Shown: positions 309 through 14,178 of the stretch, piece after piece
Numbering within the stretch: the stretch's first letter is position 1
How the letters are laid out: each line of letters begins with the position of its first letter
Assembly: GCA_913060875.1 (NCBI GenBank)
Contig: CAJXSL010000001.1
Span: 1,143,398-1,207,397 of the forward strand
DNA length: 64,000 nt
Source of the DNA: an uncultured Desulfobacteraceae bacterium
GTDB lineage: Bacteria > Desulfobacterota > Desulfobacteria > Desulfobacterales > UBA5852
Reading direction: 5' to 3'
Made by a program: the position numbers and the translations under genes
Notes under the pieces: model-generated
Databases searched by the model: none
What the model saw: the letters and a program-made list of their open reading frames with translations, nothing else
What the model was told of the DNA's origin: nothing

Positions 309-1001
309 TCATGAGCCCAAAGCCTCTCTTGTCAGGATCGCCGCCAATGCAGGGGGGAGACCGTGTTTGGCGATGGCACGCTGCCAGCGCTTGATGTAAA
401 GCGACGTCAAACGGTCTCGATTTTTTAAATAGCGGGCCTTGTCGAAATCAATGATATGGGCCGTGCCTTTTTCGTCCACCAGAACGTTGCCCGGGTGCAG
501 ATCCCGATGCCAGATGCCATGGTGAATCAGAATTCGGATTTGCGCTACCACGCCCTCATAAACGGACTGGCGATGATCGCTTTTTTCCTGGGTGATTTGG
601 ATCAATGAACGCTGGCGGGGGATGGTCGTCATAACCAGCCAGCATGGTCCCATGCATTGGCCCTTGTATGCAAATGCAACCGGGCGAGGGGCCGCAAGAC
701 CGATCGCCCGGGCGACTTCCAGCCATTGGAACTCTTTTTCGCCACGGGACTGCGGCCAGTGAACATAGGTGCGGTTGTTGACATGCCGGATCAGGCCGCC
801 CCTGGCGTAATGTTTGACCGCAACAGATCCGAATCCCTTCAAAGAAGCGATGGTAACACCCTGCCGACCGGCCAGGACGTCATTGGCCGGCGGGGGCGGG
901 TTTTCGATGAGCAAGTGCAATTGCTGCACCTGATCGCTGGTCAATTCCCGAAACGCACCCAGGTGGTATCCATGATAATGATGGCGGTAAAAAGGACTCA
1001 T
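309..1001 (-). CDS. Kdo kinase-like LPS kinase (KdkA/InaA superfamily)
   Basis: This 230-residue protein has the minimal eukaryotic-like kinase fold used by LPS core kinases. Visible motifs are the ATP-binding lysine in VAVKHYARGG (about residue 63), the catalytic loop HRDLHPGNVLV (Asp167, Asn172) and the metal-binding IIDFDKAR (about 183-190). The pattern is that of Kdo kinase KdkA, which phosphorylates Kdo in the lipid A inner core. A longer frame starts at 1085, but the ATG at 1001 overlaps the waaF stop in an ATGA arrangement and begins with the conserved part of the domain, so I chose it. It sits immediately after waaA and waaF on the same strand, which fits a Kdo or heptose substrate. 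The exact acceptor sugar is inferred. Confidence 0.75.
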   Translation of the reverse strand: MSPFYRHHYHGYHLGAFRELTSDQVQQLHLLIENPPPPANDVLAGRQGVTIASLKGFGSVAVKHYARGGLIRHVNNRTYVHWPQSRGEKEFQWLEVARAIGLAAPRPVAFAYKGQCMGPCWLVMTTIPRQRSLIQITQEKSDHRQSVYEGVVAQIRILIHHGIWHRDLHPGNVLVDEKGTAHIIDFDKARYLKNRDRLTSLYIKRWQRAIAKHGLPPALAAILTREALGS

Positions 1002-2014
1002 GCTGATTTCAGGACCTTTTCCGCGGCTGCAATGATTTCTGCGGGCAGCAGGGCCTCCATGCAGGCACGCGTTCCCGTGGGGCAAGTCTTCCCCCCATGG
1101 CGCGCACAGGGTTTACAGGGCAAATTCTGTTTTTCCACAACGACAGCGTTGGGATTCTGCCAGGGGCCGAATCCGAAAGAAGGACAGGTGGCACAGAAAA
1201 TGGCAACGCAGGGGGTTTTAAACGCCGACGCCATATGGAGCGCCATGCTGTCGTTGCAGATCATGATCGCGGCGTTCCGGGCGATGGCCAGGGCCTCGGC
1301 CACGGATGTCTTGCCGGCCAGATCGGTTACGTCCAGCTGATCAGCCACCCGCTGGTTGACGTCCCGGTCGCCTGCCCCCCCCAGAAGGGCAACCGCATAC
1401 CCTTGTTCCCGAAAATGGGCGGCAACCGTTCGATAATGCGCCCAATGCCACATTTTCGTGGGCCAGGCACTGCCGGGAACCAGCAGTGCAATCGGTCTGT
1501 CCTGGGCCAGGAGGCTTTGGGCGTCAGGGCCGAGATCTTTGCGCGGAGGGGGGTATAATCGCAGCCGCCAATCGAATTCCTCCAGGGAGGCTTCATGGCC
1601 TAAAATCGATAGATTTCGCAGAACGTCGTGGTCGGCAGCTTGCCGGGCCTGTCTGGTGTGAAAGACAAAAGAAAGCTTGGCATTGTCAAACCCCGTGCGA
1701 TGGGGGATGCCGCTGGCCAATAGCATCAGGGCGGTGCGATAGGAGCGCTGCAGGGCGTAGACCCTGGCGAACCCCATTTTACGCAAATCGTGTCCCATCC
1801 GGATCAAACCCGATAGCCCGGCGGCGCGATTGCGCTTGTCAAACGCGATGACGCCCTTTAAAAGCGGATCCCGCTCCACGATCCCGGTGCCGGCCGGTGT
1901 GGTCATCATCCACAGTTCGGCTTCAGGGTAGAGCTTGTGGACACCGGCGATTACCGGTGTCGATAGGATCGTGTCACCGAGATAGCTCGTTTGAATGATT
2001 AGGATACGCGTCAA
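998..2014 (-). CDS. waaF: ADP-heptose:LPS heptosyltransferase (WaaF-like, GT9)
   Basis: This GT9 glycosyltransferase adds the second heptose of the LPS inner core from ADP-heptose. Supporting blocks are the N-terminal TRILIIQTSYLGDTILSTP, the donor-site VPGSAWPTKMW, NDSMALHMASA, and a C-terminal LPCKPC...TCPTGTRACM cysteine block of the WaaF type. I prefer a TTG start at 2014: it begins exactly at the conserved first strand, follows a G-rich ribosome-binding stretch, and overlaps the waaA stop as TTGA. An ATG at 2056 would add 14 basic residues and overlap waaA by 46 bases. It ends in a 4-base overlap with the Kdo-kinase-like gene, so waaA-waaF-kinase is a tight transcription unit. Confidence 0.85.
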   Translation of the reverse strand: MTRILIIQTSYLGDTILSTPVIAGVHKLYPEAELWMMTTPAGTGIVERDPLLKGVIAFDKRNRAAGLSGLIRMGHDLRKMGFARVYALQRSYRTALMLLASGIPHRTGFDNAKLSFVFHTRQARQAADHDVLRNLSILGHEASLEEFDWRLRLYPPPRKDLGPDAQSLLAQDRPIALLVPGSAWPTKMWHWAHYRTVAAHFREQGYAVALLGGAGDRDVNQRVADQLDVTDLAGKTSVAEALAIARNAAIMICNDSMALHMASAFKTPCVAIFCATCPSFGFGPWQNPNAVVVEKQNLPCKPCARHGGKTCPTGTRACMEALLPAEIIAAAEKVLKSA

Positions 2015-3333
2015 CTTGTCTGCCCCTGTCTTACCACGTCGCGATCTGCCGGACACTGCGGTTCTAACAGTTGTTCGATGGCCTGGACAGCCATGGCCGT
2101 GCCGCCCTGGCGTTCGGCTACATAGCGCTGAAGGGTGTCGATTACAGTTTGCGGCGGCGGCGGTGCTTCGATGGCTTTCAGCAAATGATCACCGGCCTGG
2201 CGCCAGTCCTCGGCGACATGGACAAGCCCCTGGCTAAAGATTTCCGGTCCGACCCATTCAAATGTTTTCCAGGAGGGACCAATGGTGGGAATAATGCCAC
2301 AGGTCAACGGTTCCAGAAAATTCTGCCCGCCCAGCGGGGCCAGCGACCCCCCCACAAACGCGCTGGTCGCGGCGGCATACCCGCTGGTCAGTTCACCGAA
2401 AACATCCCATAGGATAACCCCGCCGGGATTCACGGGCGCATCGATGCGGGAACGCAGATGGCAGGTGATACCGGCGGCCTTAAGTCGTTTCTGCCATGGT
2501 GCGGTGCGGTGCATGTGCCGGGGAAAAAGGCCGATCAGGATGCCCGGTCGCCGGTCAAGGAGATAGCCGATCAATTGGTCGACGGCAGCCTCCTCTTCCT
2601 GTCGTACCGATCCGAGAACGACAAACGGCGTTCCTGCCGGGATTAACCGCCTCACATGGTCAGGTTGCTCAGTCTTAGGGCTCGTACTGACCCGATCGAA
2701 CTTCATATTCGGCATGACCGACACCCGCGAAGTGCCGTAAAGACAGACGTAGCGATCCGCGTCTGCCGGGCTGACGGCCATAATGCGGTCGGGTCCCAGT
2801 GCATGCCAGAATCGGGGCCAAAGCTGGTAGTGACGCAAACTTTTGGCCTGCATGCGCCCATTGACGATGATCATCGGAATGCCCTTAACCTTTATGGCGT
2901 TCATGAGCCCCGGCCAGATTTCCGTTTCGAGAAGTACCATGATGCGGGGCTGGATGGCGTCCACGGCCTTTTGCATAAGCGACGGCCGATCGAACGGGAA
3001 GAATGCCGAGGCCCATTGGTCGCGCTTGCTGGCCGAACGCAGCCGTTGCATGACGGCATCGAGGATGTCTTTTCCCTGGCGCGTATTGGTCGTGACCAGG
3101 ATGCGGTAAGGGGTGTCCTCACCCAGCGTGTCGAGAATCATGCCGGCCAGGTAGGATTCACCGGCCGAAGCCGCCTGTATCCAGATATCCATGGGATCGA
3201 TAGGGAAAGACCGGCCCAGGCGTTGGGGTAAACCGTCGCGCAACCGATGGTTGCGGCCAAGAAAAGGTGTGGCACCACGCCAGAGCCACTCATAGGTATG
3301 CAAAGCCAACCGTATCGTACCAGAACGTTTCAC
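2011..3333 (-). CDS. waaA: Kdo transferase (3-deoxy-D-manno-octulosonic acid transferase)
   Basis: WaaA (KdtA, GT30) transfers Kdo from CMP-Kdo to the lipid A precursor at the cytoplasmic membrane. The 440-residue length is typical. Diagnostic pieces are the N-terminal membrane-proximal segment, WIQAASAGES (catalytic-base Glu of the [SA]xGE motif), FFPFD, LLETEIWPGL, NGRM and the C-terminal GGSLAPLGGQNFLEP donor block. It heads the minus-strand unit waaA-waaF-kinase and is divergent from kdsA, so Kdo synthesis and transfer share one intergenic region. Whether it adds one or two Kdo residues cannot be told from sequence. Adjacent kinase genes would fit phosphorylated Kdo, but that is inference. 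Confidence 0.92.
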   Translation of the reverse strand: MKRSGTIRLALHTYEWLWRGATPFLGRNHRLRDGLPQRLGRSFPIDPMDIWIQAASAGESYLAGMILDTLGEDTPYRILVTTNTRQGKDILDAVMQRLRSASKRDQWASAFFPFDRPSLMQKAVDAIQPRIMVLLETEIWPGLMNAIKVKGIPMIIVNGRMQAKSLRHYQLWPRFWHALGPDRIMAVSPADADRYVCLYGTSRVSVMPNMKFDRVSTSPKTEQPDHVRRLIPAGTPFVVLGSVRQEEEAAVDQLIGYLLDRRPGILIGLFPRHMHRTAPWQKRLKAAGITCHLRSRIDAPVNPGGVILWDVFGELTSGYAAATSAFVGGSLAPLGGQNFLEPLTCGIIPTIGPSWKTFEWVGPEIFSQGLVHVAEDWRQAGDHLLKAIEAPPPPQTVIDTLQRYVAERQGGTAMAVQAIEQLLEPQCPADRDVVRQGQTS

Positions 3334-3653: not shown

Positions 3654-4490
3654 ATGACAGCCCAACACCTTGTGTCGGTTGGCCCTGTGACGTGCGGTGC
3701 GGAGAAGCTTTTTTTAATTTCCGGACCTTGCGTGATCGAAGATGAGTCCATCATGATGCATACGGCGGAACAACTGAAGTTGATCGCCGAGCGTCTTGAT
3801 CTGCCGCTGATCTTCAAATCATCGTTTATGAAAGATAATCGCAGCGCCATGACCCATTATCATGGGCCGGGTCTGGATGAAGGGCTTGCACTGCTGGCCA
3901 AGATCCGGGAAACCTTCGAGGTGCCCATCATCACGGACGTGCATTTCCCCGAACAAGTCCAATCGACGGCCGAGGTGGCCGATATCATTCAGATTCCAGC
4001 CTATCTCTGCATGCAGACGGCCCTGGTGACAACGGCGGCTCAAACCGGTCGTGCCATTAACATCAAGCATGGCCAGTTTCTGGCACCGGCGAATATGATC
4101 AAACCGGTTCAGAAAATCGAAAGCCTCGGTTACCATGATATCCTGTTGACGGAACGAGGTTATACATTCGGCTACAACGATCTGATCGTCGATCCCCGCA
4201 GCTTTTACGAACTGCGCCAGATCGGATACCCGGTTGTCTTTGACATCACCCACAGTATCCGCCGCTACGGAATCCCCAGCAAGGATCCCCGTGGCAGCAG
4301 TCGCGAATACCTGACAACCATTGCCCGTGCCGGGGTTGCCGCCGGCGTCGATGGCATCTTCGTGGAAGCCCATCCAAACCCCCCGGAGGCGTTGTGCGAC
4401 GCGGCCAGTCAGCTGGCCCTGGATCAAGCCGAAGACTTTTTTAAACCCCTGATCGACATTCACAATCTCGTCAAAGAACAGCGCGATTGA
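3654..4490 (+). CDS. kdsA: 3-deoxy-8-phosphooctulonate synthase (Kdo-8-phosphate synthase)
   Basis: KdsA condenses D-arabinose 5-phosphate with PEP to give Kdo-8-phosphate in the cytoplasm. The 278-residue protein shows the family blocks ISGPCVIED, FKSSFMKDNRSA, IITDVHFPEQ, ADIIQIPAYLCMQT, NIKHGQFLAP, LTERGYTFGYN and VEAHPNPPEAL. Cys26 in the GPCVIE block is the metal ligand of the metal-dependent class (as in Aquifex); metal-free E. coli KdsA has Asn there. I chose the ATG at 3654 because AAGGAG lies just upstream; a frame opening at 3591 lacks such a site. It leads the operon kdsA / transaldolase-CBS / kdsC / acyltransferase / kinase, so its arabinose-5-phosphate source should be encoded nearby. 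Confidence 0.95.
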   Translation: MTAQHLVSVGPVTCGAEKLFLISGPCVIEDESIMMHTAEQLKLIAERLDLPLIFKSSFMKDNRSAMTHYHGPGLDEGLALLAKIRETFEVPIITDVHFPEQVQSTAEVADIIQIPAYLCMQTALVTTAAQTGRAINIKHGQFLAPANMIKPVQKIESLGYHDILLTERGYTFGYNDLIVDPRSFYELRQIGYPVVFDITHSIRRYGIPSKDPRGSSREYLTTIARAGVAAGVDGIFVEAHPNPPEALCDAASQLALDQAEDFFKPLIDIHNLVKEQRD

Positions 4491-4602: not shown

Positions 4603-5628
4603 ATGGATTTGTATCTTGATTCGGCGGACTTCAAGGAAATCGAGGAAGCGTTTCAACTGGGTTTCATCAAGGGACTTACGACGACGCCGACATTCATGCA
4701 CCGCCACGGCATTACCGACATTGACGGTGCCATCGTCAAACTGTCCGGGATGGTGCCGGAGCTTCAGGTGGAAGCGCTGGGTGAAAAACACGATGAAATC
4801 GTTACCGAGGCCCATCGCCTTCTTGAACTTCCATTGGCCAAAGAACCTGTTTTTAAGGTACCGGTTTCTCTGGAAGGGTTGCGGGCATGTAAAACCCTGA
4901 CGGACGAGGGGCACCGCGTCAACGTGCATTTGATCTATACCCTCAACCAGGCTTACATGGCCATGGCGGCTGGCGCGGCTTTCGTATGTCCGCTGGCCGG
5001 ACGTTTGCAGGACCAGGGGCACGAAGCAATTCTGCTTTACGAGCAGTGCGTCGATCTGGTGGAACGCTATGGCTATTCCACCAAAATCATGTTTTCTTCC
5101 GTACGCTATCCGGACCATATCCGCCAGGCGGCTCTCGCCGGTGTCCATGTCTGTACGGTTCCCTGGGGCGTGATGAAGCGACTGTGCGACAATTCCCTGA
5201 CCAAGGTCGGCACGGAACAGTTTTTCGAACATACGCGTCTGATGACCGTCAAGGTCAAAGACGTCATTCGGGAAAACAACCCTATCTGCCGTCTTGCGGA
5301 AACCGTGAAAGACGCCCTGGTGAAAATGACCGCATCGCGTATTGGCGCGGTGACCCTCGTCAATGATGCCGGCGAATTGGCGGGTGTTTTTACCGATGGT
5401 GACGTGCGCCGCCGCCTCCAGGAGAATGGTGAGGGTATCCTGGATAAACAGATGAAGGATGCGGGCTACACACCGGATCCCTTTACCGTCAATGCGGATG
5501 CGCTTCTGTATGAAGCCGTCAACGTTTTCAATGCGCACCAGATCGACAATATCATCGTTCTGGAAGACAACCTACCCGTCGGGATCCTGGATATCCAGGA
5601 CCTGGTGAAAATGGGTCTTTTGGGATAA
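4603..5628 (+). CDS. Transaldolase/F6P-aldolase domain fused to a KdsD-like CBS pair
   Basis: Residues 1 to about 220 are a TalC/FSA-type class I aldolase: MDLYLDSADF with Asp6, GLTTTPT, and the Schiff-base lysine in VFKVPVS at residue 85, the same number as Lys85 of E. coli fructose-6-phosphate aldolase. Differences are TTTPT for the usual TTNP[ST], LQVEA with a Glu, and CPLAGRLQ where FSA has a Tyr. Residues about 225-341 are two CBS domains with FTDGDVRRRL and GILDIQDLVKMG, very like the CBS tail of arabinose-5-phosphate isomerase KdsD (IFTDGDLRR...HDLLRAG). The sugar-isomerase (SIS) domain of KdsD is thus replaced by an aldolase. Lying between kdsA and kdsC, where kdsD would be, it probably supplies or controls arabinose 5-phosphate. 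Activity is inferred. An AAAGGA site precedes the ATG. Confidence 0.88.
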   Translation: MDLYLDSADFKEIEEAFQLGFIKGLTTTPTFMHRHGITDIDGAIVKLSGMVPELQVEALGEKHDEIVTEAHRLLELPLAKEPVFKVPVSLEGLRACKTLTDEGHRVNVHLIYTLNQAYMAMAAGAAFVCPLAGRLQDQGHEAILLYEQCVDLVERYGYSTKIMFSSVRYPDHIRQAALAGVHVCTVPWGVMKRLCDNSLTKVGTEQFFEHTRLMTVKVKDVIRENNPICRLAETVKDALVKMTASRIGAVTLVNDAGELAGVFTDGDVRRRLQENGEGILDKQMKDAGYTPDPFTVNADALLYEAVNVFNAHQIDNIIVLEDNLPVGILDIQDLVKMGLLG

Positions 5629-5633
5629 CGGCC

Positions 5634-6365
5634 ATGACCACCAGCGGTTCCTTCCTGGCCCCCTGGGTGGCGGCCTTCCAAAAGGCCGGCGCCCAGTTCG
5701 TGATATCGCCGGAAGCGTTGCAGAAGAAGCTGGCCCGGGTGCGCGCCCTGATATTCGATTGGGATGGCGTTTTCAATACAGGGCAAAAAGGCGAAGGGGT
5801 GACCAGCCATTTTACCGAACCGGATTCCATGGGCAGCAACATGCTGCGTTTCGGGCTCTGGCTGCCCCAGGAATCCATGCCGATTGTCGCCGTGATTACC
5901 GGAGTGGATAACCGGTCGGCCATGCATCTGGCCCGGCGTGAGCATTTCCATGACGTCTACTTCAGCATTCGCAACAAGCGCGTCGCCGTGGAGCACCTCT
6001 GCTCGGCCCATGGCCTTCGGGCCGATCAGGTGGCTTGCCTTTTCGATGATATCAACGATCTTGAAATGGCGCAGATTTGCGGCGTGCGATGTCTTCTCCC
6101 ACGGACTGCAAGCCCCATGTTTACCCATTATGTCGTCCGTCGCGGTTTGGCGGACTATGTTACGGGCTGTGGCCCGGGTGAACACGGCGTGCGTGAATTC
6201 TCCGAGATGGTTTTGGCCGCATTGGGTCGCTACGAGCAAATTGTTGCCGCCCGGATGACCTGGAATAACCAGTACCAGGCCTATTTTACCCAGAGGCAGG
6301 CCATCCTGACGAATTTTTACACCCAAAAAGCCGATCAGATTCGACCGGCCTCCAATATTTCTTGA
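5634..6365 (+). CDS. kdsC: HAD phosphatase, KdsC-like (Kdo-8-phosphate phosphatase), extended
   Basis: KdsC removes phosphate from Kdo-8-phosphate to give Kdo. HAD motifs are IFDWDGVFNTG (nucleophile Asp42, acid Asp44), AVITG (Thr89), Lys115 in SIRNKRVAVEHL and LFDDINDLEMA (Asp138/139), with no large cap, as in the KdsC class. The start lies 5 bases after the transaldolase-CBS stop and the two are clearly co-transcribed. At 243 residues it is longer than usual (about 170-190). The extra length is a roughly 25-residue N-terminal lead and a C-terminal tail of about 45 residues rich in aromatic residues and Gln. Motif I reads DWDGV, not the common DVDGV, so the substrate could have shifted; context still favours Kdo-8-phosphate. 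Confidence 0.8.
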   Translation: MTTSGSFLAPWVAAFQKAGAQFVISPEALQKKLARVRALIFDWDGVFNTGQKGEGVTSHFTEPDSMGSNMLRFGLWLPQESMPIVAVITGVDNRSAMHLARREHFHDVYFSIRNKRVAVEHLCSAHGLRADQVACLFDDINDLEMAQICGVRCLLPRTASPMFTHYVVRRGLADYVTGCGPGEHGVREFSEMVLAALGRYEQIVAARMTWNNQYQAYFTQRQAILTNFYTQKADQIRPASNIS

Positions 6366-6393: not shown

Positions 6394-7356
6394 ATGCCGT
6401 TTGTTGCCCCGTGCGGGAAAAAGCCAGGGGGGATGCTGTTGAAGCCGATTGCGGGGTTGATGGGGCGTTTATCGGTATCCGCCATTGAGGCCATCGGCGG
6501 TCTTGTCGGCTGGTTGGCGTACACGCTCGACATCCGGCATCGCCGCATCATCCTCCAGAATCTGACCTTCATCTACCCGGACTTGAATGGGCGCCAGACC
6601 CGAATTTTGGCCAAGCGCATTTTCCGGCATTTTGCTATCGTTCTGTTTGAAATTTTTCAATTACCGTTCGTATCGAAAAAAAAATTGATTGAACGGGTCC
6701 GTTGCGAGGGGCTGGAAACCTTAGTCGAGGCCATGCATCATCCCCGTGGTTGCCTGATCTATTCAGCCCATATGGGGAATTGGGAATTGGGATTTCTGTC
6801 GCTTTCGGCCCGATTGAATCATTCGGTCCTGACGGTGGCCAAACCCATCAAGTGGCAGTTGGCCCATCAGTGGCTGACAACCCTACGATCCCGTTTTGGA
6901 AACCGGGTGGTTTTCAAAGAAGGGGCGATGCCCTTTATGATCCAATCCTTGCGCGCGGGGCATACGGTTGCGGTTCTCATTGATCAAGGGGTGCGCCGCA
7001 CCGAAGCGGTGGAAGTGACCTTTATGGGGAAGCGCACCATGGCAACGCCGGCCGCGGCATTGCTGGCCCTGCGCTGCCGCATGCCCGTGGTGCCTATTTT
7101 TTGCGTGAGACAGTCAGATGGGCACTATCTCATCCGCGTTGAGCCCCCCGTGGCCATCGAACGCACGGCATCGTTACGCGACGATATCAACACGTATACC
7201 CACAGCCTCATGCAGGTCCTGGAGACCGCAATAAGGAAGCACCCCGAGCAATGGTTCTGGTTCCACAAACGGTGGAAAAGAACTTATCCGGAAATTTACC
7301 CCCAGTATCAAGTCCTGCGGCGGCGGAAACGGATCAAAAAGGGACGGGAGGTTTAA
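6394..7356 (+). CDS. Lipid A acyltransferase, LpxL/HtrB-like
   Basis: A 320-residue membrane-associated acyltransferase of the LpxL/LpxM (HtrB/MsbB) family, which adds secondary acyl chains to Kdo2-lipid A at the inner leaflet. The catalytic HxxxxE is HMGNWE (His126, Glu131). Other family blocks are IDQGVRRTEAVEVTFMGKRT (the acceptor region) and the ending PEQWFWFHKRWK. A hydrophobic stretch at residues about 30-45 (AIEAIGGLVGWLAYTL) is the usual N-terminal anchor. It follows kdsC by 28 bases in the Kdo operon. An alternative ATG at 6433 has a G-rich site directly in front. Chain length and position (LpxL versus LpxM) cannot be told. Confidence 0.88.
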   Translation: MPFVAPCGKKPGGMLLKPIAGLMGRLSVSAIEAIGGLVGWLAYTLDIRHRRIILQNLTFIYPDLNGRQTRILAKRIFRHFAIVLFEIFQLPFVSKKKLIERVRCEGLETLVEAMHHPRGCLIYSAHMGNWELGFLSLSARLNHSVLTVAKPIKWQLAHQWLTTLRSRFGNRVVFKEGAMPFMIQSLRAGHTVAVLIDQGVRRTEAVEVTFMGKRTMATPAAALLALRCRMPVVPIFCVRQSDGHYLIRVEPPVAIERTASLRDDINTYTHSLMQVLETAIRKHPEQWFWFHKRWKRTYPEIYPQYQVLRRRKRIKKGREV

Positions 7357-7417: not shown

Positions 7418-8215
7418 ATGGCATCGGGTGCTTCGGTGAACGAATATATTCATCCCGAATGGCGATCAACGTTAATCGACAACGGGCTAACCGATTTCGA
7501 TGCGTTCTGGAACATGGACCTGCCGCTGCTGGATGCGCCCAACACGAGCCGAGGAGGCTTCAGCTCGGTGGCGCGGATGGATCTGATGAGCAACGAAGGC
7601 TACCATTGCCCCCTGATTCTCAAACGTCAGCAGAATCACAACAGCCGGACTTGGCGGCATCCTCTGCGGGGTCTGCCGACAGTCCAGAAAGAGTTTATCA
7701 ATATCTGCCGATTCAGGAAACGGGGCCTGGAAACGGTCACACCCGTTTTTTTTGCTCGGCGGAGGGTTCCCGATGGCGTGCAGGCCATCCTGGCCACGGA
7801 GTATCTAAGGGATTATCTTTCGTTTGAAGACGTGCTGGCGCAATGTGGAACTGCGCCGAAAAACAATCTGACAGGCAAACGGCGGGCGCTTCGCCTGAGC
7901 GCCGATTGGGTGCGCGGTATGCATAAAGCTGGCTTTCAGCACAATTGCCTGTATACCAAACACCTTTTTATCAATCTGGAAAACAGCCAAGTGCCGGTGA
8001 GGGGGATTGATCTTGAAAAGGCCCGTTGGCAGCCACGGGCCTCCAAACGCTGGCGCCATGACTTGGGTGCTTTATTCAGGCGCGCAAAAAGCATGAACAG
8101 GACCGACCGCCTTCGGTTTCTGAAATGTTATTTTGGAGCCGACACTGTGAATCCGGAAGTCCGGCGGGCCTGGTACCGCATTCATCAAGCCCTATACCAC
8201 AAAAAGAAACGATAG
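7418..8215 (+). CDS. LPS kinase, InaA-type
   Basis: A 265-residue protein of the InaA branch of the LPS kinase superfamily. It shows the nucleotide lysine in PLILKRQQNH, an E-containing helix (QKEFINICRFRKRG), ATEYLRDY, and the InaA-style catalytic loop FQHNCLYTKHLFI followed by GIDLEKAR. In InaA proteins the canonical HRD aspartate position carries Asn, as here, so that change is normal for the branch. A GGGAG site lies 8 bases before the ATG at 7418. It is the last gene of the kdsA operon, 61 bp after the acyltransferase, and faces a minus-strand kinase. A role in phosphorylating a core sugar is inferred; no substrate is known. Confidence 0.75.
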   Translation: MASGASVNEYIHPEWRSTLIDNGLTDFDAFWNMDLPLLDAPNTSRGGFSSVARMDLMSNEGYHCPLILKRQQNHNSRTWRHPLRGLPTVQKEFINICRFRKRGLETVTPVFFARRRVPDGVQAILATEYLRDYLSFEDVLAQCGTAPKNNLTGKRRALRLSADWVRGMHKAGFQHNCLYTKHLFINLENSQVPVRGIDLEKARWQPRASKRWRHDLGALFRRAKSMNRTDRLRFLKCYFGADTVNPEVRRAWYRIHQALYHKKKR

Positions 8216-8251: not shown

Positions 8252-8920
8252 TCAATGCTGTTGGAAATACGTTTCAAAACACCGGCGCAGACGGTTCTCT
8301 TGACGGTGGCCTAATTGCGTTGTTTGGCAATAGGTGTCGATAAAAATATGACGTACTGGCGCCATGCAGTCGATATCGGCATCATATCGAAAAAGATGGC
8401 GCAGATTTCGGATTCGCAACCCCGTATTGAGGGGGCCTCCGCGGAAACGCATATCGACCACATCAATCAAACCGAAGCGGCCGTCAGGGGTAAGCACCAC
8501 ATTGCCGAAGTGGATTGAGCGGAAGTAAACACCCTTTTCGTGGAGAGAAGCAAAAAAGCGTCCGAATCGTTTGGCGAGATGAGCATCCATTGCTGTCTGG
8601 CAGTATTCCCGAAGCGTCAAACCGGTTAGAAAACGGTAGTGCACGGCTGTCCGCTTGATTGCCGGTATCTGATAAACGGCCTTCAGGCTTACGGTGGAAA
8701 TGCCAAGGGCGTCAAGGCGCGCAACATTGTTTTTAAACCGCCGCGTGTGAGGATAAATGCGAGCTGAAGTCAGCACTCTTTTCAGGCGAAACAATTTCAG
8801 TATGCTGCGATCCGGCAGTTGCAGCACTTTATGGGTAATCTGGCCATCGACCAATTCGCAGACCAAAGGTGTTGCCTGCGCGATCAGGCCGTTATACTCT
8901 GATAATGAAAGCGTTTCCAT
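8252..8920 (-). CDS. Kinase-fold protein of the LPS kinase/toluene-tolerance type
   Basis: A 222-residue protein with LPS kinase-like architecture: ILKLFRLKR (lysine strand), TRRFKNNVARLDALGI, GLTLREYC, then VYFRSIHFGNVVL and FGLIDVVDMRF in the places of the catalytic and metal loops. The HRD aspartate is replaced (FRS), while the GN of the catalytic loop and the D of the DFG-like loop remain. The same replacement is, to my knowledge, common in the family annotated as toluene tolerance/BUD32-like. It is convergent with the preceding InaA-type gene and upstream of a 426-bp non-coding stretch. It may be an active atypical kinase or a binding protein. Confidence 0.65.
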   Translation of the reverse strand: METLSLSEYNGLIAQATPLVCELVDGQITHKVLQLPDRSILKLFRLKRVLTSARIYPHTRRFKNNVARLDALGISTVSLKAVYQIPAIKRTAVHYRFLTGLTLREYCQTAMDAHLAKRFGRFFASLHEKGVYFRSIHFGNVVLTPDGRFGLIDVVDMRFRGGPLNTGLRIRNLRHLFRYDADIDCMAPVRHIFIDTYCQTTQLGHRQENRLRRCFETYFQQH

Positions 8921-10905: not shown

Positions 10906-11923
10906 GTTGAAGACGATCCTGTTTGTATCCAAGGAGGAGTCAGCCCCTTCCACCCGCTATCGCGCACTTGCTTATTTTGACCGGTTGCGTTCGGATGGCT
11001 GGAACCCGGTGCATCTTCCGGCCCCTCGGTCCCTATTTGCACGGCTGCGAATTCTGAAGGCCGCCCGAAAAGCAGATGTTGTTGTTCTTCTGCGCAAAAC
11101 GTTTGGGCGCGGGTACATTCGGTTGCTGCGAAAATATTCCCGGCGGCTGATCCTTGATTTTGACGATGCCGTATTTTGCAGAAGCAATGGCGGTTATTCT
11201 AAAACTAGACGATGCCGTTTTGAACGCTCGGTCAGCCTGTGTGATGGCATATGGGCCGGCAATCGCTTTCTATGTGATGCCGCCAAGGCGCATCATTCGA
11301 AAGTGTTTGTTTTACCCACTGCGTTGGACATCTCCAAATACGATGAAGAATCGATCAAACCGGATGACAAACTTGTTTTCGTCTGGATCGGCAGCCATTC
11401 GACACGGAAATACCTGGAGGCCGAACTGCCGACGCTGGAAAAAGTCGCGGAGCGTTTGGGCACCATTGAACTAAAAATTGTTGCGGACTTTACCCTTGAA
11501 TCCGGTCGTCTGTCGATTTCAGCTGTCCCCTGGAGTGCCGAAACGGAAGCCAGGGAGTTGCGGTCCGCCCACATCGGTATTGCCCCCATGCCGGATAATG
11601 ACTGGACCAAAGGGAAGTGTGGGCTGAAAGTCCTCCAGTATATGGCGGCCGGACTGCCTGTGATATCGACGCCATCGGGAGTTAACGCGGAAATCATAGA
11701 AAATGGCATGACCGGATTCCTGCCGCGCAATGATGAAGAGTGGTATCAGGTGACCAAAAAGCTCTCGGAAGACCCCGAATTGCGCGAACGGTTGGGAGAG
11801 GCAGGACGAGAAAAGGTTTGCCGGATGTACAGTGTGGATGTTGTCTATCAGGAGATGAAACGCTCACTGGATGAGATCCAGCAGGCTAGTTGCAAAAGCG
11901 AAAGACCGCCTGTCATCCGATAA
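10892..11923 (+). CDS. Glycosyltransferase, GT4-like
   Basis: A 343-residue glycosyltransferase with two Rossmann-like halves. The N-terminal half has TILFVSKEESAPSTRYRALA. The C-terminal half has KLVFVWIGSHSTRKYL, GIAPMPDNDWTKGKCGLKVL, QYMAAGLPVISTPSGVN and the E-x7-E-like AEIIENGMTGFL, all typical of retaining GT4 enzymes. I prefer the ATG at 10892 over the upstream TTG at 10883. It overlaps the methyltransferase gene by 14 bases and its end overlaps the convergent double-kinase gene by 11 bases. The likely job is addition of a core or O-chain sugar; donor and acceptor cannot be read. Confidence 0.82.
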   Translation: MRRPKLKTILFVSKEESAPSTRYRALAYFDRLRSDGWNPVHLPAPRSLFARLRILKAARKADVVVLLRKTFGRGYIRLLRKYSRRLILDFDDAVFCRSNGGYSKTRRCRFERSVSLCDGIWAGNRFLCDAAKAHHSKVFVLPTALDISKYDEESIKPDDKLVFVWIGSHSTRKYLEAELPTLEKVAERLGTIELKIVADFTLESGRLSISAVPWSAETEARELRSAHIGIAPMPDNDWTKGKCGLKVLQYMAAGLPVISTPSGVNAEIIENGMTGFLPRNDEEWYQVTKKLSEDPELRERLGEAGREKVCRMYSVDVVYQEMKRSLDEIQQASCKSERPPVIR

Positions 11924-13367
11924 ATTGTTTCAGACGTTTCAAAAGAGGTTGATTGACAAGAGGAAGGTTTTGCCAATTGCGCAGCAGACGTTTCAAGTCC
12001 TTGTGAAAAGCTTTCCTGAACGATGCCTGAGAGCGATGAGCCCGCATTCCGTCCAAATCCGCCAGATAGAGACGGCCGGCGGAAAGGAGGAAATTGGTTG
12101 CTTTGAAATCGCCATGACTGATGCGCGCGGTGGCAAGTTGTTCCAATAGGGCTACTAATTCATCAAGACGCCCCTCTATGGCCTGTCGATCACGAACCTC
12201 TTCATGAAATGTCTGATCCAGTGTAACCCCCTCAATGTGCGCCATGATAAAGTAGGCCCGTTGGCGCAGATATCCCCAACGCCTTTCGATGACGGCAAGG
12301 GGGCGTGGCGTATTGATGCCAAGAAACCTTAACCGGTGAGCATTTTCCCAGGATACCATGGCGCGACTGGGGCGAAAACAGCGACGCAATGCATGTCCGG
12401 CATCTTTGATATTGTACCGCTTGACCACAACCGTCTGAGAGTCGATTGTGACTTTGGCCACGGTGGCGCTATTGCCGGCCTTCAGGATGGTGCCGCTTTC
12501 GATGAAGTTATCTGGATTTTCGATCAGCGGTTGCCATGTCGGTGTATACCAATCCCGATCCCAGATGATGAAACGTCGCCAGTTTTTCACCGCGTGAAAC
12601 GCCGTGCAGGAACGTTTCGTTTTCGGTAAAAATTTTTTGAGGCGCCAATTACGCCAACGTTTGGTTTCGCCTCGGACACAATTTTGCCAATGTTGCGAAA
12701 CCGTCCAATTGCGACTTGCCCCATATACTGTGACGAGATCCGGCAACAGGGTATCGAACGAAGGGTAAAACTGGGCAAGAAACAGGGCCAAATTGGAAAG
12801 ACTTTCCTTTTGTGGAAGGGGGGCGGCCCCCGCGGCTTCGATATCGTCACCATCGATAATCATGACGTCCCCGGCCGACAAGAGAAAATTACCGGGATGA
12901 ATGTCCCTCTGTTTGAGACCCGCAATGTGCAAGCGGGCTATGGCCTGGACGGCACGGCTGAGGGCGTCAAAGTGATTTTCGGCACTGGCGGTGCTTGCCA
13001 GGTACTTGGAGAGGTCGGTGTGTGCCGTCATGTGCCGGAACAGAAGTACGGGCGCATGGCCTTCAGCCAATTTTCCCTTGAACAGGAGCTCAGGCGTTGG
13101 AATCCGGGCCGCTTGTAAAGCTTTAATGCCGCTCAATTCACGCTGATAATGCCGTTCGCAACCCGATGGGTCCAGGAAAATTTTTGCGACGCAAGGGCGG
13201 TGGTGGTTGCGGTGCCCGGTGCACACCAGTCGCTTGCCTGGGAGATGACGCAAAATAGCGGTGCATGTCAGATTACGACAGCTCGGCGCCGCATCCAGAA
13301 CCAATTGAAATGGGGGTGAAAGCTCTCGTCCTATAAGACGAAGCCCTTGGGCGTCATAGTGGCGCAT
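11913..13367 (-). CDS. Tandem double LPS kinase (two InaA-type modules in one chain)
   Basis: The 484-residue chain carries two complete kinase modules. Module 1 (about 1-240) has CVAKIFLDPSG, a QRDIHPGNFLL catalytic loop and MIIDGDDIEA. Module 2 (about 265-484) has VVVKRYNIKDAGHAL, ISHGDFKATNFLL and YLADLDGMRAHR. Both keep the nucleotide lysine, catalytic aspartate, loop Asn and metal aspartate, so both could be active. Most LPS kinases are single modules of 230-280 residues. I prefer the ATG at 13367, with GGGGAAA upstream, over a TTG at 13388. It follows another kinase gene by 43 bp in the waaG-waaP unit. Phosphorylation of two different core positions is a reasonable guess only. Confidence 0.78.
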   Translation of the reverse strand: MRHYDAQGLRLIGRELSPPFQLVLDAAPSCRNLTCTAILRHLPGKRLVCTGHRNHHRPCVAKIFLDPSGCERHYQRELSGIKALQAARIPTPELLFKGKLAEGHAPVLLFRHMTAHTDLSKYLASTASAENHFDALSRAVQAIARLHIAGLKQRDIHPGNFLLSAGDVMIIDGDDIEAAGAAPLPQKESLSNLALFLAQFYPSFDTLLPDLVTVYGASRNWTVSQHWQNCVRGETKRWRNWRLKKFLPKTKRSCTAFHAVKNWRRFIIWDRDWYTPTWQPLIENPDNFIESGTILKAGNSATVAKVTIDSQTVVVKRYNIKDAGHALRRCFRPSRAMVSWENAHRLRFLGINTPRPLAVIERRWGYLRQRAYFIMAHIEGVTLDQTFHEEVRDRQAIEGRLDELVALLEQLATARISHGDFKATNFLLSAGRLYLADLDGMRAHRSQASFRKAFHKDLKRLLRNWQNLPLVNQPLLKRLKQFIG

Positions 13368-13410
13368 GAATCGATTTCCCCAGGCCAACGTGGCGATCGC
13401 CGCAAGGGGA

Positions 13411-14178
13411 TTATTCCCTCCCGTGGAAGAACCGCAAGATTTTGCGAATTTTGTGTTTGTCCCTCTCCCCCAGCCGTTGGATACGCTCGTAATTCATGAA
13501 AAATTTAAGCCGCTGGGTGCGGGACAGCCGCATTTTCGCCACTTTGTCCAGGCATGCGATATCCTTGATGAACCACCTTGTCGCGTTGGGTCCGCGGCGT
13601 ATCTGGCCGGCCGGGCAGTCGAAAAAAGAGACTCGGGGGGTGTCTTGTAGGGATACCAGTATATTGCGCCATTTGAGATCCAGATGACCGAATCGCTTTT
13701 GGTGCAGCCGGCGCGTGTGCCGGGCGATTTGGTGGCTCACCGCCGCCACCCAATGCCGGTCTTTTAAAATGGGATGATCTTCAAGGTGCAGGGTATTAAG
13801 GTCCCTGCTATCTTGCAACTCGGCCGTCACAAGGGCTGCCCGTTTGAAAAGCCCTCCCCAGGTTTCCTGCCCATAGGCCACCAAAGGGGGGGTCGGGATG
13901 TCGAGTTGTTCAAAAAAAAAGAGGTTCTCCCATTCGGCCCGGGCCCGACTGCGGCCGAACCAGCGTCGCAGGCTTTTCCCACCTCGGGTATACGTTTTGA
14001 TGTAAACGGCCTTGCCTTGGATCTCGGTGCGGATAACGCGGCTGATCGGGCTGGACGTTACATACTGACCTGCGGTGTCAAAGGCCGCGGCCAAAGTAGG
14101 CAAAAAGTTTGCTATCGGTGTATCACGATAAGCAGGGGTTATTTCCCAGAAAGTTGACATAGACTTTCGATGCCGCAT
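13411..14178 (-). CDS. LPS kinase, InaA/WaaP-like
   Basis: A 255-residue single-module kinase: VYIKTYTRGGKSLRRWFGRS (nucleotide lysine strand and basic helix), AEWENLFFFEQLDI (Glu helix), VTAELQDSRDL, FGHLDLKWRNILV (catalytic Asp and Asn) and VSFFDCPAGQIRRG. The metal-loop reads FDCPAG and not the more usual IDFD/IDLH. It lies between waaP and the double-kinase gene on the same strand, with 43-58 bp gaps, so the four genes waaG-waaP-kinase-double kinase appear to be one operon. The substrate is probably a core heptose or Kdo, by context only. Confidence 0.75.
   Translation of the reverse strand: MRHRKSMSTFWEITPAYRDTPIANFLPTLAAAFDTAGQYVTSSPISRVIRTEIQGKAVYIKTYTRGGKSLRRWFGRSRARAEWENLFFFEQLDIPTPPLVAYGQETWGGLFKRAALVTAELQDSRDLNTLHLEDHPILKDRHWVAAVSHQIARHTRRLHQKRFGHLDLKWRNILVSLQDTPRVSFFDCPAGQIRRGPNATRWFIKDIACLDKVAKMRLSRTQRLKFFMNYERIQRLGERDKHKIRKILRFFHGRE

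Follow-up and report, generated by a model that had tools for sequence, protein, structure and literature searches.

Kdo is a near-universal constituent of Gram-negative lipopolysaccharide, and the arabinose 5-phosphate (A5P) step on the way to it is treated as an isomerase step. What, then, supplies KdsA in a Kdo cluster where the gene beside kdsA codes for a transaldolase-like barrel joined to the regulatory tail of the isomerase KdsD? This question is raised by a locus of an uncultured Desulfobacteraceae bacterium, within the 64,000-nucleotide stretch of DNA analysed here (hereafter the window). The gene (4603..5628, + strand, ATG start) encodes a 341-residue TAL_FSA-CBS-CBS fusion, a putative Schiff-base A5P-forming enzyme with a KdsD-type regulatory tail.

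Upstream of the fusion lies kdsA (3654..4490, +). Its longest frame starts at TTG 3591, and ATG 3654 is preceded by a Shine-Dalgarno-like aaaggag. The KdsA protein is clearly over the cut-off of NF003543 (329.2 bits, cut-off 242) and narrowly over that of TIGR01362 (316.3 bits, cut-off 314); the copy of a genome of the same genus (G004) falls just below the latter with 313.5 bits. Downstream, a HAD-type phosphatase (5634..6365, +) is only weakly KdsC-like (NF007019, 40.9 bits, cut-off 208) and, like three of its relatives, reaches no Pfam cut-off; its profile match and neighbourhood make it a candidate Kdo8P phosphatase of the module. The first-pass annotation had placed the gene between kdsA and kdsC. 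The cluster also contains genes for the Kdo transferase WaaA/KdtA (2011..3333, −; PF04413, 138.4 bits), a family 9 glycosyltransferase of the heptosyltransferase type (998..2056, −; PF01075, 128 bits) and an LpxL/HtrB-type lipid A acyltransferase (6394..7356, +; PF03279, 198.7 bits). Together, these neighbours identify the region as a Kdo/inner-core cluster. Small kinase-like ORFs lie around it (309-1085, 7418-8215, 8252-8920, 11913-13388 and 13411-14178) and resemble, by eye, WaaP/InaA kinases of the LPS core.

The barrel of the fusion (residues 3-219; 4609..5259, +) belongs to the TAL_FSA superfamily (PF00923, 116.8 bits, cut-off 27), and the CBS pair (residues 218-339; 5254..5619, +) gives two CBS stretches with 59.6 bits against a cut-off of 24. 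The match to the fructose-6-phosphate aldolase profile TIGR00875 (150.9 bits) stays below the equivalog cut-off of 245.95, and no NCBIfam cut-off is passed by the protein. Its tail aligns with the C-terminal part alone of KpsF (TIGR00393, positions 153-266, 73.4 bits) and of KdsD (NF008141, positions 200-327, 53.4 bits), and no SIS domain was matched by Pfam in the fusion. An AlphaFold model (46 input sequences) has a mean pLDDT of 91.3 and a pTM of 0.65, the latter making the arrangement of the domains less sure. It adopts the transaldolase fold (3r8r, Z 29.6, rmsd 1.5, 210 aligned residues; FSA 1l6w, Z 27.5, rmsd 1.8, 214 aligned residues), and in the sequence alignment residues 1-196 of 1l6w correspond to residues 1-196 of the fusion. 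When the CBS tail was modelled by itself, its best structural match was the CBS pair of the A5P isomerase 4o9k (Z 18.9, rmsd 1.9, 127 aligned residues); two other A5P-isomerase pairs, 3k2v and 3fna (Z 17.6 and 17.3), are tied with further CBS pairs. The tail is 24-34% identical to 22 KdsD tails, and the tails of fusions form a branch separate from those of KdsD (support 0.976). Profiles and fold comparison thus bear out the TalC/FSA-type barrel with a KdsD-like two-CBS tail and no SIS domain that had been read from the sequence at first. Overall, the fusion has in common with KdsD/KpsF/GutQ (SIS plus CBS pair, TIGR00393) the C-terminal CBS pair, as seen by profiles and structure comparison, and the place in the pathway, beside kdsA and a kdsC-like gene. 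Where these enzymes have a SIS isomerase domain, however, it has a Lys-dependent aldolase barrel.

The closest relatives of the fusion in fold and sequence are short transaldolases of the B. subtilis/T. maritima type (3r8r, 1vpx; 31-34% identity), with which it shares E57 and N107. With FsaA (TIGR00875; 1l6w), it shares the fold and residues D6, T26, K85, R134 and S166, whereas N28, T109, Gln59 and Y131 of FsaA are T28, H109, E57 and L131 in the fusion; FsaA also lacks the CBS tail and the Kdo-operon place. Across 81 fusions, D6, T26, E57, K85 (codon 4855-4857), N107, R134, S166 and R168 are always kept, and T28 and H109 (codon 4927-4929) are found in every copy where all 21 standalone relatives (one protein each from 21 of 146 related genomes) have N28 and T109; residues T26-M32 and 115-121 lie within the two search patterns, so that invariance there in the 80 loci, including that of T28, is partly ascertained. 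Hence, the Schiff-base lysine and partner aspartate of PF00923 enzymes are present throughout, and the residues expected of a transaldolase (EC 2.2.1.2) are replaced at positions 28 and 109. Residue 129 is Ser in 21/21 standalone proteins and Cys (75, the protein of the window included) or Thr (6) in the fusions, residue 131 is Phe in 21/21 against Leu in all 81, and residue 136 is Asp in the standalone relatives against Gln (77) or His (4). In a tree, fusions and standalone relatives split with support 1.0. We take the kept residues to be the Schiff-base lysine, its aspartate, the acid glutamate and the phosphate clamp for glyceraldehyde 3-phosphate (G3P), and the changed ones to line the site holding the dihydroxyacetone hydroxyls and the catalytic water, by comparison with TalB and FSA (presumed comparison sites Asn35, Glu96, Thr156 and Ser176 in TalB; Gln59, Thr109, Ala129 and Tyr131 in FSA). 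The residue pattern would thus fit an unchanged acceptor and a changed donor. D6, T28, K85 and L131 are where the first-pass annotation had placed them, and its view that altered active-site positions point to a changed substrate is strengthened by the fixation of the donor-site changes.

Does the genome have another A5P isomerase? An ordinary SIS-domain KdsD elsewhere, named beforehand as evidence that would speak against the proposal, was searched for in the window's own genome (G000; 30 contigs, completeness 99.73) with SIS and kpsF profiles and rejected, as none was found. The four SIS-domain matches, read by eye, are three proteins with an N-terminal RpiR-like HTH region and one giant GlmS-like protein. 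No KpsF/KdsD match is over cut-off in this genome, and the best KpsF match is the tail of the fusion itself. The genome retains one KdsB in addition to the WaaA of the window. It also contains one further TAL_FSA gene, standalone and ordinary (G000:C25). Such standalone transaldolases were considered as the missing A5P enzyme and rejected: they are present with and without KdsD and do not track the gap.

The fusion is widespread. One scan of species genomes by tblastn gave at least 539 relatives of any kind, the full fusion being checked for fewer. In the best 80 of these, the match covers at least 325 of the 341 residues with 58-93% identity, and the record titles name Deltaproteobacteria/Desulfobacterales, Gammaproteobacteria, Rhodospirillaceae, Scalindua, one Nitrospira MAG and many Bacteroidota, among them the cultured Thermonema rossianum, Raineya orbicola and Thermoflexibacter ruber. 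A set of Gammaproteobacteria contained the fusion in 2/274 genomes, one being the centre of the set, which is too few for statistics. In plasmid records, no match covered 80% of the fusion; 76 records had partial matches, annotated as FSA wherever a name was given.

Two groups were surveyed for the relation between the fusion and KdsD: the 146 relatives of the window's genome and the 247 genomes of the class of Raineya orbicola (G185), which we take, from record titles, to be Desulfobacterota and Bacteroidia, respectively. The full fusion occurs in ten of the relatives (G000, G002, G003, G004, G005, G039, G061, G107, G133 and G139). In G005, the frame is split by an assembly NN (L053:7657-7658) and would be annotated automatically as two genes; two real genes were rejected in favour of one interrupted gene, which was counted as a fusion. 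KdsD is over cut-off in 0/10 fusion genomes and in 119/136 others (Fisher 9.5e-9, a descriptive and overstated value like those that follow, given that the species lack statistical independence). In the class of G185, 48 genomes contain the fusion, a frequency that is no rate for the class because the set was drawn around one fusion genome, and 128 contain KdsD over cut-off, with no overlap (0/48 against 128/199 others, Fisher 1.2e-18). Leaving out five degenerate fusions does not change the picture (0/43, Fisher 1.9e-16); in one of their genomes, G343, the SIS part alone is matched, below threshold. Replacement is also seen at short range. In genus g43, G133 has the fusion without KdsD, and its congeners G046 and G098 have KdsD without the fusion; in family f35, G039 has the fusion, and G095 and G131 have KdsD instead. 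Mutual exclusion in two unrelated groups, together with the switch within a genus, carries more weight than the P values.

Not every gap is filled by the fusion. KdsD is below cut-off or absent in 27 of the 146 relatives, of which 17 also lack the fusion. Eight of these 17 have weak KdsA matches, at DAHP-synthase strength, and nine have ordinary KdsA over cut-off (G007, G020, G029, G041, G055, G099, G116, G134 and G145; three of them 96-97% complete), which indicates that KdsD may be missing for other reasons; these nine may have a third A5P source or missing contigs. Conversely, KdsD is over cut-off in 8/50 fusion genomes that we picked from the best 80 (G173, G174 and G185 being also in the class set). 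Hence, the absence of SIS-CBS KdsD expected by the first-pass annotation holds in both surveyed groups and fails in part of this third set. Two KdsA genes are present in ten of these 50 genomes, and one genome lacks any KdsA match at E 1e-50. A second, ordinary KdsA is found in 6/8 genomes with KdsD against 4/42 without (Fisher 3e-4), suggesting that a persisting KdsD usually comes with its own KdsA. The exceptions, G151 (record titled chromosome) and G195, have the fusion, one KdsA and KdsD. On the other hand, G158, G162, G171 and G172 combine ordinary KdsA and the fusion with a KdsD below cut-off or none.

The co-occurrence with kdsA and kdsC proposed for survey at the outset was indeed observed: in the best 80 of at least 539 loci, KdsA adjoins the fusion in 60 and the KdsC-like protein in 55. 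The 20 loci without adjoining KdsA include some short contigs; most are from Bacteroidota, several having kdsA on another contig. With the window's KdsA as query, the class of G185 falls into two groups. The first has 60-69% identity and comprises 42 genomes (one with a fragment), with E-values of 1e-116 or stronger save for that of the G277 fragment, which is 65% identical. The second, with 50% identity or less among the matches listed, is the sole type in 136 genomes, some of them classed by best E-value (about 2e-78 or weaker). Every one of the 42 genomes with window-type KdsA carries the fusion, and KdsD is absent from all of them. In contrast, the 136 with ordinary KdsA alone have the fusion in no case, KdsD in 124, a sub-threshold KdsD match in ten and neither in two (G208 and G367). 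Window-type KdsA is found in 42/43 genomes with a non-degenerate fusion, the remaining one (G346) having its fusion at a contig end. In addition, tree distances of fusion and KdsA are correlated (r 0.66, 59 loci), to a degree reached by 0/2000 permutations.

The KdsA of the module is itself peculiar. Ordinary and module KdsA separate fully in a tree (32 and 87 rows, support 1.0, branch 0.47), the 87 rows including the same gene fetched twice and 69 being distinct. Like metal-type KdsA (Aquifex 1fwn), module KdsA has the metal ligands C25, H199, E237 and D248 in 87/87 rows, and the window's copy keeps them. It departs from the metal-type enzyme by KDNRS and CMQ, both fixed, by IKHGQF, which is nearly so, and by an extended loop following THS. 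Relative to ordinary KdsA, the fixed changes are A60D, R119M, Q202R, P204Y and one inserted residue, with K138H nearly fixed (85/87). A60D turns KANRS, presumably the sugar-site motif of KdsA, into KDNRS in all module rows, the window's included, against KANRS or KANRT in 32/32 ordinary ones. The partner KdsA is thus, by its sequence, its own subfamily with fixed changes in the sugar-site motif. Therefore, the enzyme either handles A5P in another way or uses an aldose phosphate other than A5P. This tempers the initial interpretation: the fusion as a stand-in for KdsD is supported, but the distinct KdsA subfamily had been missed, and a different aldose phosphate might be formed.

KdsB is over cut-off in 60/65 genomes searched, with one match each in the ten genomes that have both KdsA types; among the genomes searched, none was found in G098, G146, G152 and G174. 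The KdsB of G039 is 77% identical to that of the fusion genome G148 and 66% to that of G000, against 45-47% to the KdsB proteins of G046, G095 and G131, which have KdsD. The KdsB of G133 is nearest to those of three Bacteroidota fusion genomes (50-53%), with 45% identity to that of its congener G046, and the fusion of G133 has its nearest relatives among both Bacteroidota and Desulfobacterota copies. G002 is an exception, with a sole KdsB match under cut-off (153.1 bits) that is 36% identical to G000 KdsB; a second KdsB match in G004 also has 153.1 bits. KdsB thus appears to follow the module as a tendency, not uniformly, and fusion plus KdsA, in cases with KdsB, may be read as a transferable cassette. 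When neighbours within about 6 kb were clustered across the 80 loci, the groups found in at least 7 of them were the fusion, KdsA, the KdsC-like protein, KdtA, KdsB-like, HepI and LpxL proteins and, by eye, an ABC-transporter ATPase, kinase-like proteins, glycosyltransferases and antisense frames; no glycolaldehyde supplier stood out among these groups.

How might the fusion make the substrate of KdsA? KdsA needs an aldehyde substrate, and an FSA-type aldol addition yields an aldose only if the donor is itself an aldehyde. The donor would then be an aldehyde, and glycolaldehyde plus G3P with FSA stereochemistry gives D-arabinose 5-phosphate. Transketolase can release glycolaldehyde. A5P is said, in the paper accompanying PDB entry 3upb, to inhibit transaldolase. 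We propose that the fusion is a class I aldolase of the transaldolase/FSA fold that would form a Schiff base on Lys85. As an enamine, a C2 donor (glycolaldehyde, either free or transferred) would most likely add to D-glyceraldehyde 3-phosphate, whose phosphate would be held by Arg134, Ser166 and Arg168, and the (2S,3R) product, D-arabinose 5-phosphate, would be supplied to the adjacent KdsA. The aldolase fusion would in this way substitute for the isomerase KdsD, and its KdsD-type CBS pair would sense a pathway product, as presumed for KdsD; the related 4o9k structure contains CMP-Kdo. A precedent for the reaction exists: E. coli FsaA is reported to make A5P from glycolaldehyde and G3P (PMC6298115, PMC9947464), with glycolaldehyde as its preferred donor and G3P as acceptor (PMC6298115), and the reaction has served a synthetic pathway in E. 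coli (PMC9947464). The use of glycolaldehyde as a donor by FSA, on which the proposal was first built, is in line with these reports. A transaldolase bound covalently to A5P, PDB entry 3upb, lends the proposal further chemical plausibility.

The explanation as a whole, an aldolase that supplies A5P to KdsA in place of KdsD, most likely from glycolaldehyde and G3P, has in our estimate a probability of roughly 0.6. Against it speak the fusion genomes that retain KdsD, the relatives with ordinary KdsA that lack both KdsD and the fusion, and the fact that no glycolaldehyde source stood out beside the module. Its parts differ in strength. Replacement of KdsD by the fusion is strongly supported by distribution and linkage. 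A5P is likely to be the product. The predicted aldol reaction of glycolaldehyde with G3P comes next, at somewhat better than even odds, and the C2 donor and the CBS effector are less certain than the product.

Among other readings, one keeps the product and changes the chemistry. The fusion could make A5P by C2 epimerisation of ribose 5-phosphate without free glycolaldehyde: Lys85 would form a Schiff base with the C1 aldehyde, either C2 would lose its proton or the C2-C3 bond would break and re-form on the opposite face, and His109 would be the new acid/base. The replacement of Thr by His109 (21/21 standalone relatives against 81/81 fusions) speaks for this scheme, as does a substrate that is a pentose phosphate already in cells, and the linkage evidence serves it as well as the aldol reaction. 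We know of no precedent for epimerisation in the transaldolase fold, however, and the kept D6, T26, E57 and K85 fit C-C bond chemistry equally well, so that we consider it unlikely. The title of entry 3upb, a transaldolase in covalent complex with Arabinose-5-P, is in its favour in that an aldopentose phosphate is held covalently by a transaldolase. By one chemistry or the other, aldol addition or Schiff-base epimerisation, the fusion very probably makes the aldose phosphate of KdsA, judging from its residues and genomic setting. Another reading changes the product: the module would make some other aldose phosphate, which KdsA would condense with PEP into a Kdo analogue or isomer. The fixed differences of module KdsA (A60D, R119M, Q202R, P204Y), the divergence of the KdsC-like protein and the association of KdsB with the module in several Desulfobacterota (G039 KdsB resembling those of G148 and G000) are arguments for it, and the sugar-motif changes weigh against the aldolase explanation, as they would not be needed if the source of A5P alone had changed. 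Yet genomes with both KdsA types have one KdsB each and WaaA belongs to the ordinary family, so that both types apparently feed into a single route of activation and transfer; an FSA-type enzyme with glycolaldehyde and G3P yields A5P; and the four genomes that combine ordinary KdsA and the fusion without KdsD over cut-off are what one would expect with an A5P-forming fusion, provided that the assemblies are complete. A product other than A5P therefore seems doubtful to us.

Two further readings deny the fusion a new activity, and both fare worse. An ordinary transaldolase or fructose-6-phosphate aldolase with incidental CBS domains would agree with the fold and the catalytic lysine. It is very improbable given that the protein scores under the FSA equivalog cut-off, that a standard TAL_FSA gene exists elsewhere in the genome, that N28, T109, S129 and F131 are changed across the fusion family, and that the gene is linked to kdsA and excludes KdsD. 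A catalytically dead barrel, the protein merely regulating KdsA through its CBS pair, would have a parallel in the class of G185, where five genomes carry degenerate copies that lack Lys85. These copies occur, however, in genomes with no KdsA match at E 1e-45. None of the 81 fusions compared deviates at D6, E57, K85 or the phosphate site, and genomes with the fusion only would be left with no known A5P source; the chance of a dead barrel is accordingly slight.

Should the aldolase explanation be correct, a second route to Kdo would exist, in which a CBS-regulated aldolase joins a C2 aldehyde and G3P into A5P for a KdsA evolved alongside it. The route would occur in hundreds of species across several phyla, and a cassette of fusion and KdsA, often with the KdsC-like protein and KdsB, would move between lineages and displace KdsD and ordinary KdsA. 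For this broader picture, we see even odds. It would change pathway annotation in hundreds of genomes and would explain many kdsA-bearing genomes without kdsD. It would also give a natural role to the FSA-type glycolaldehyde chemistry, which appears as an in vitro and engineering reaction in the two papers cited, and would raise the question of the source of the two-carbon unit in bacteria with the fusion. A CBS-regulated A5P aldolase would in addition be usable in the design of carbon-conserving pathways. In the open-licence PMC literature, we found no description of the fusion; a prior description is possible.

Some loci show additional features. The module of a Woeseiaceae MAG lies between two distinct members of the Kdo-transferase family (L104:3804-5126 and L104:7748-9040), and KdsD and ordinary KdsA are encoded in the same genome. 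This MAG may make a second glycan that contains Kdo. In other loci, too, the module is bordered by similar pairs of KdtA-like genes. Finally, the five degenerate TAL-CBS relatives in the class of G185 (L252:6277-7281, −; L253:6389-7390, −; L254:6374-7417, +; L255:6427-7437, −; L256:6132-7151, +), 35-39% identical, have lost Lys85 and the TTTPT loop and kept the CBS tail, and are possibly pseudoenzymes.
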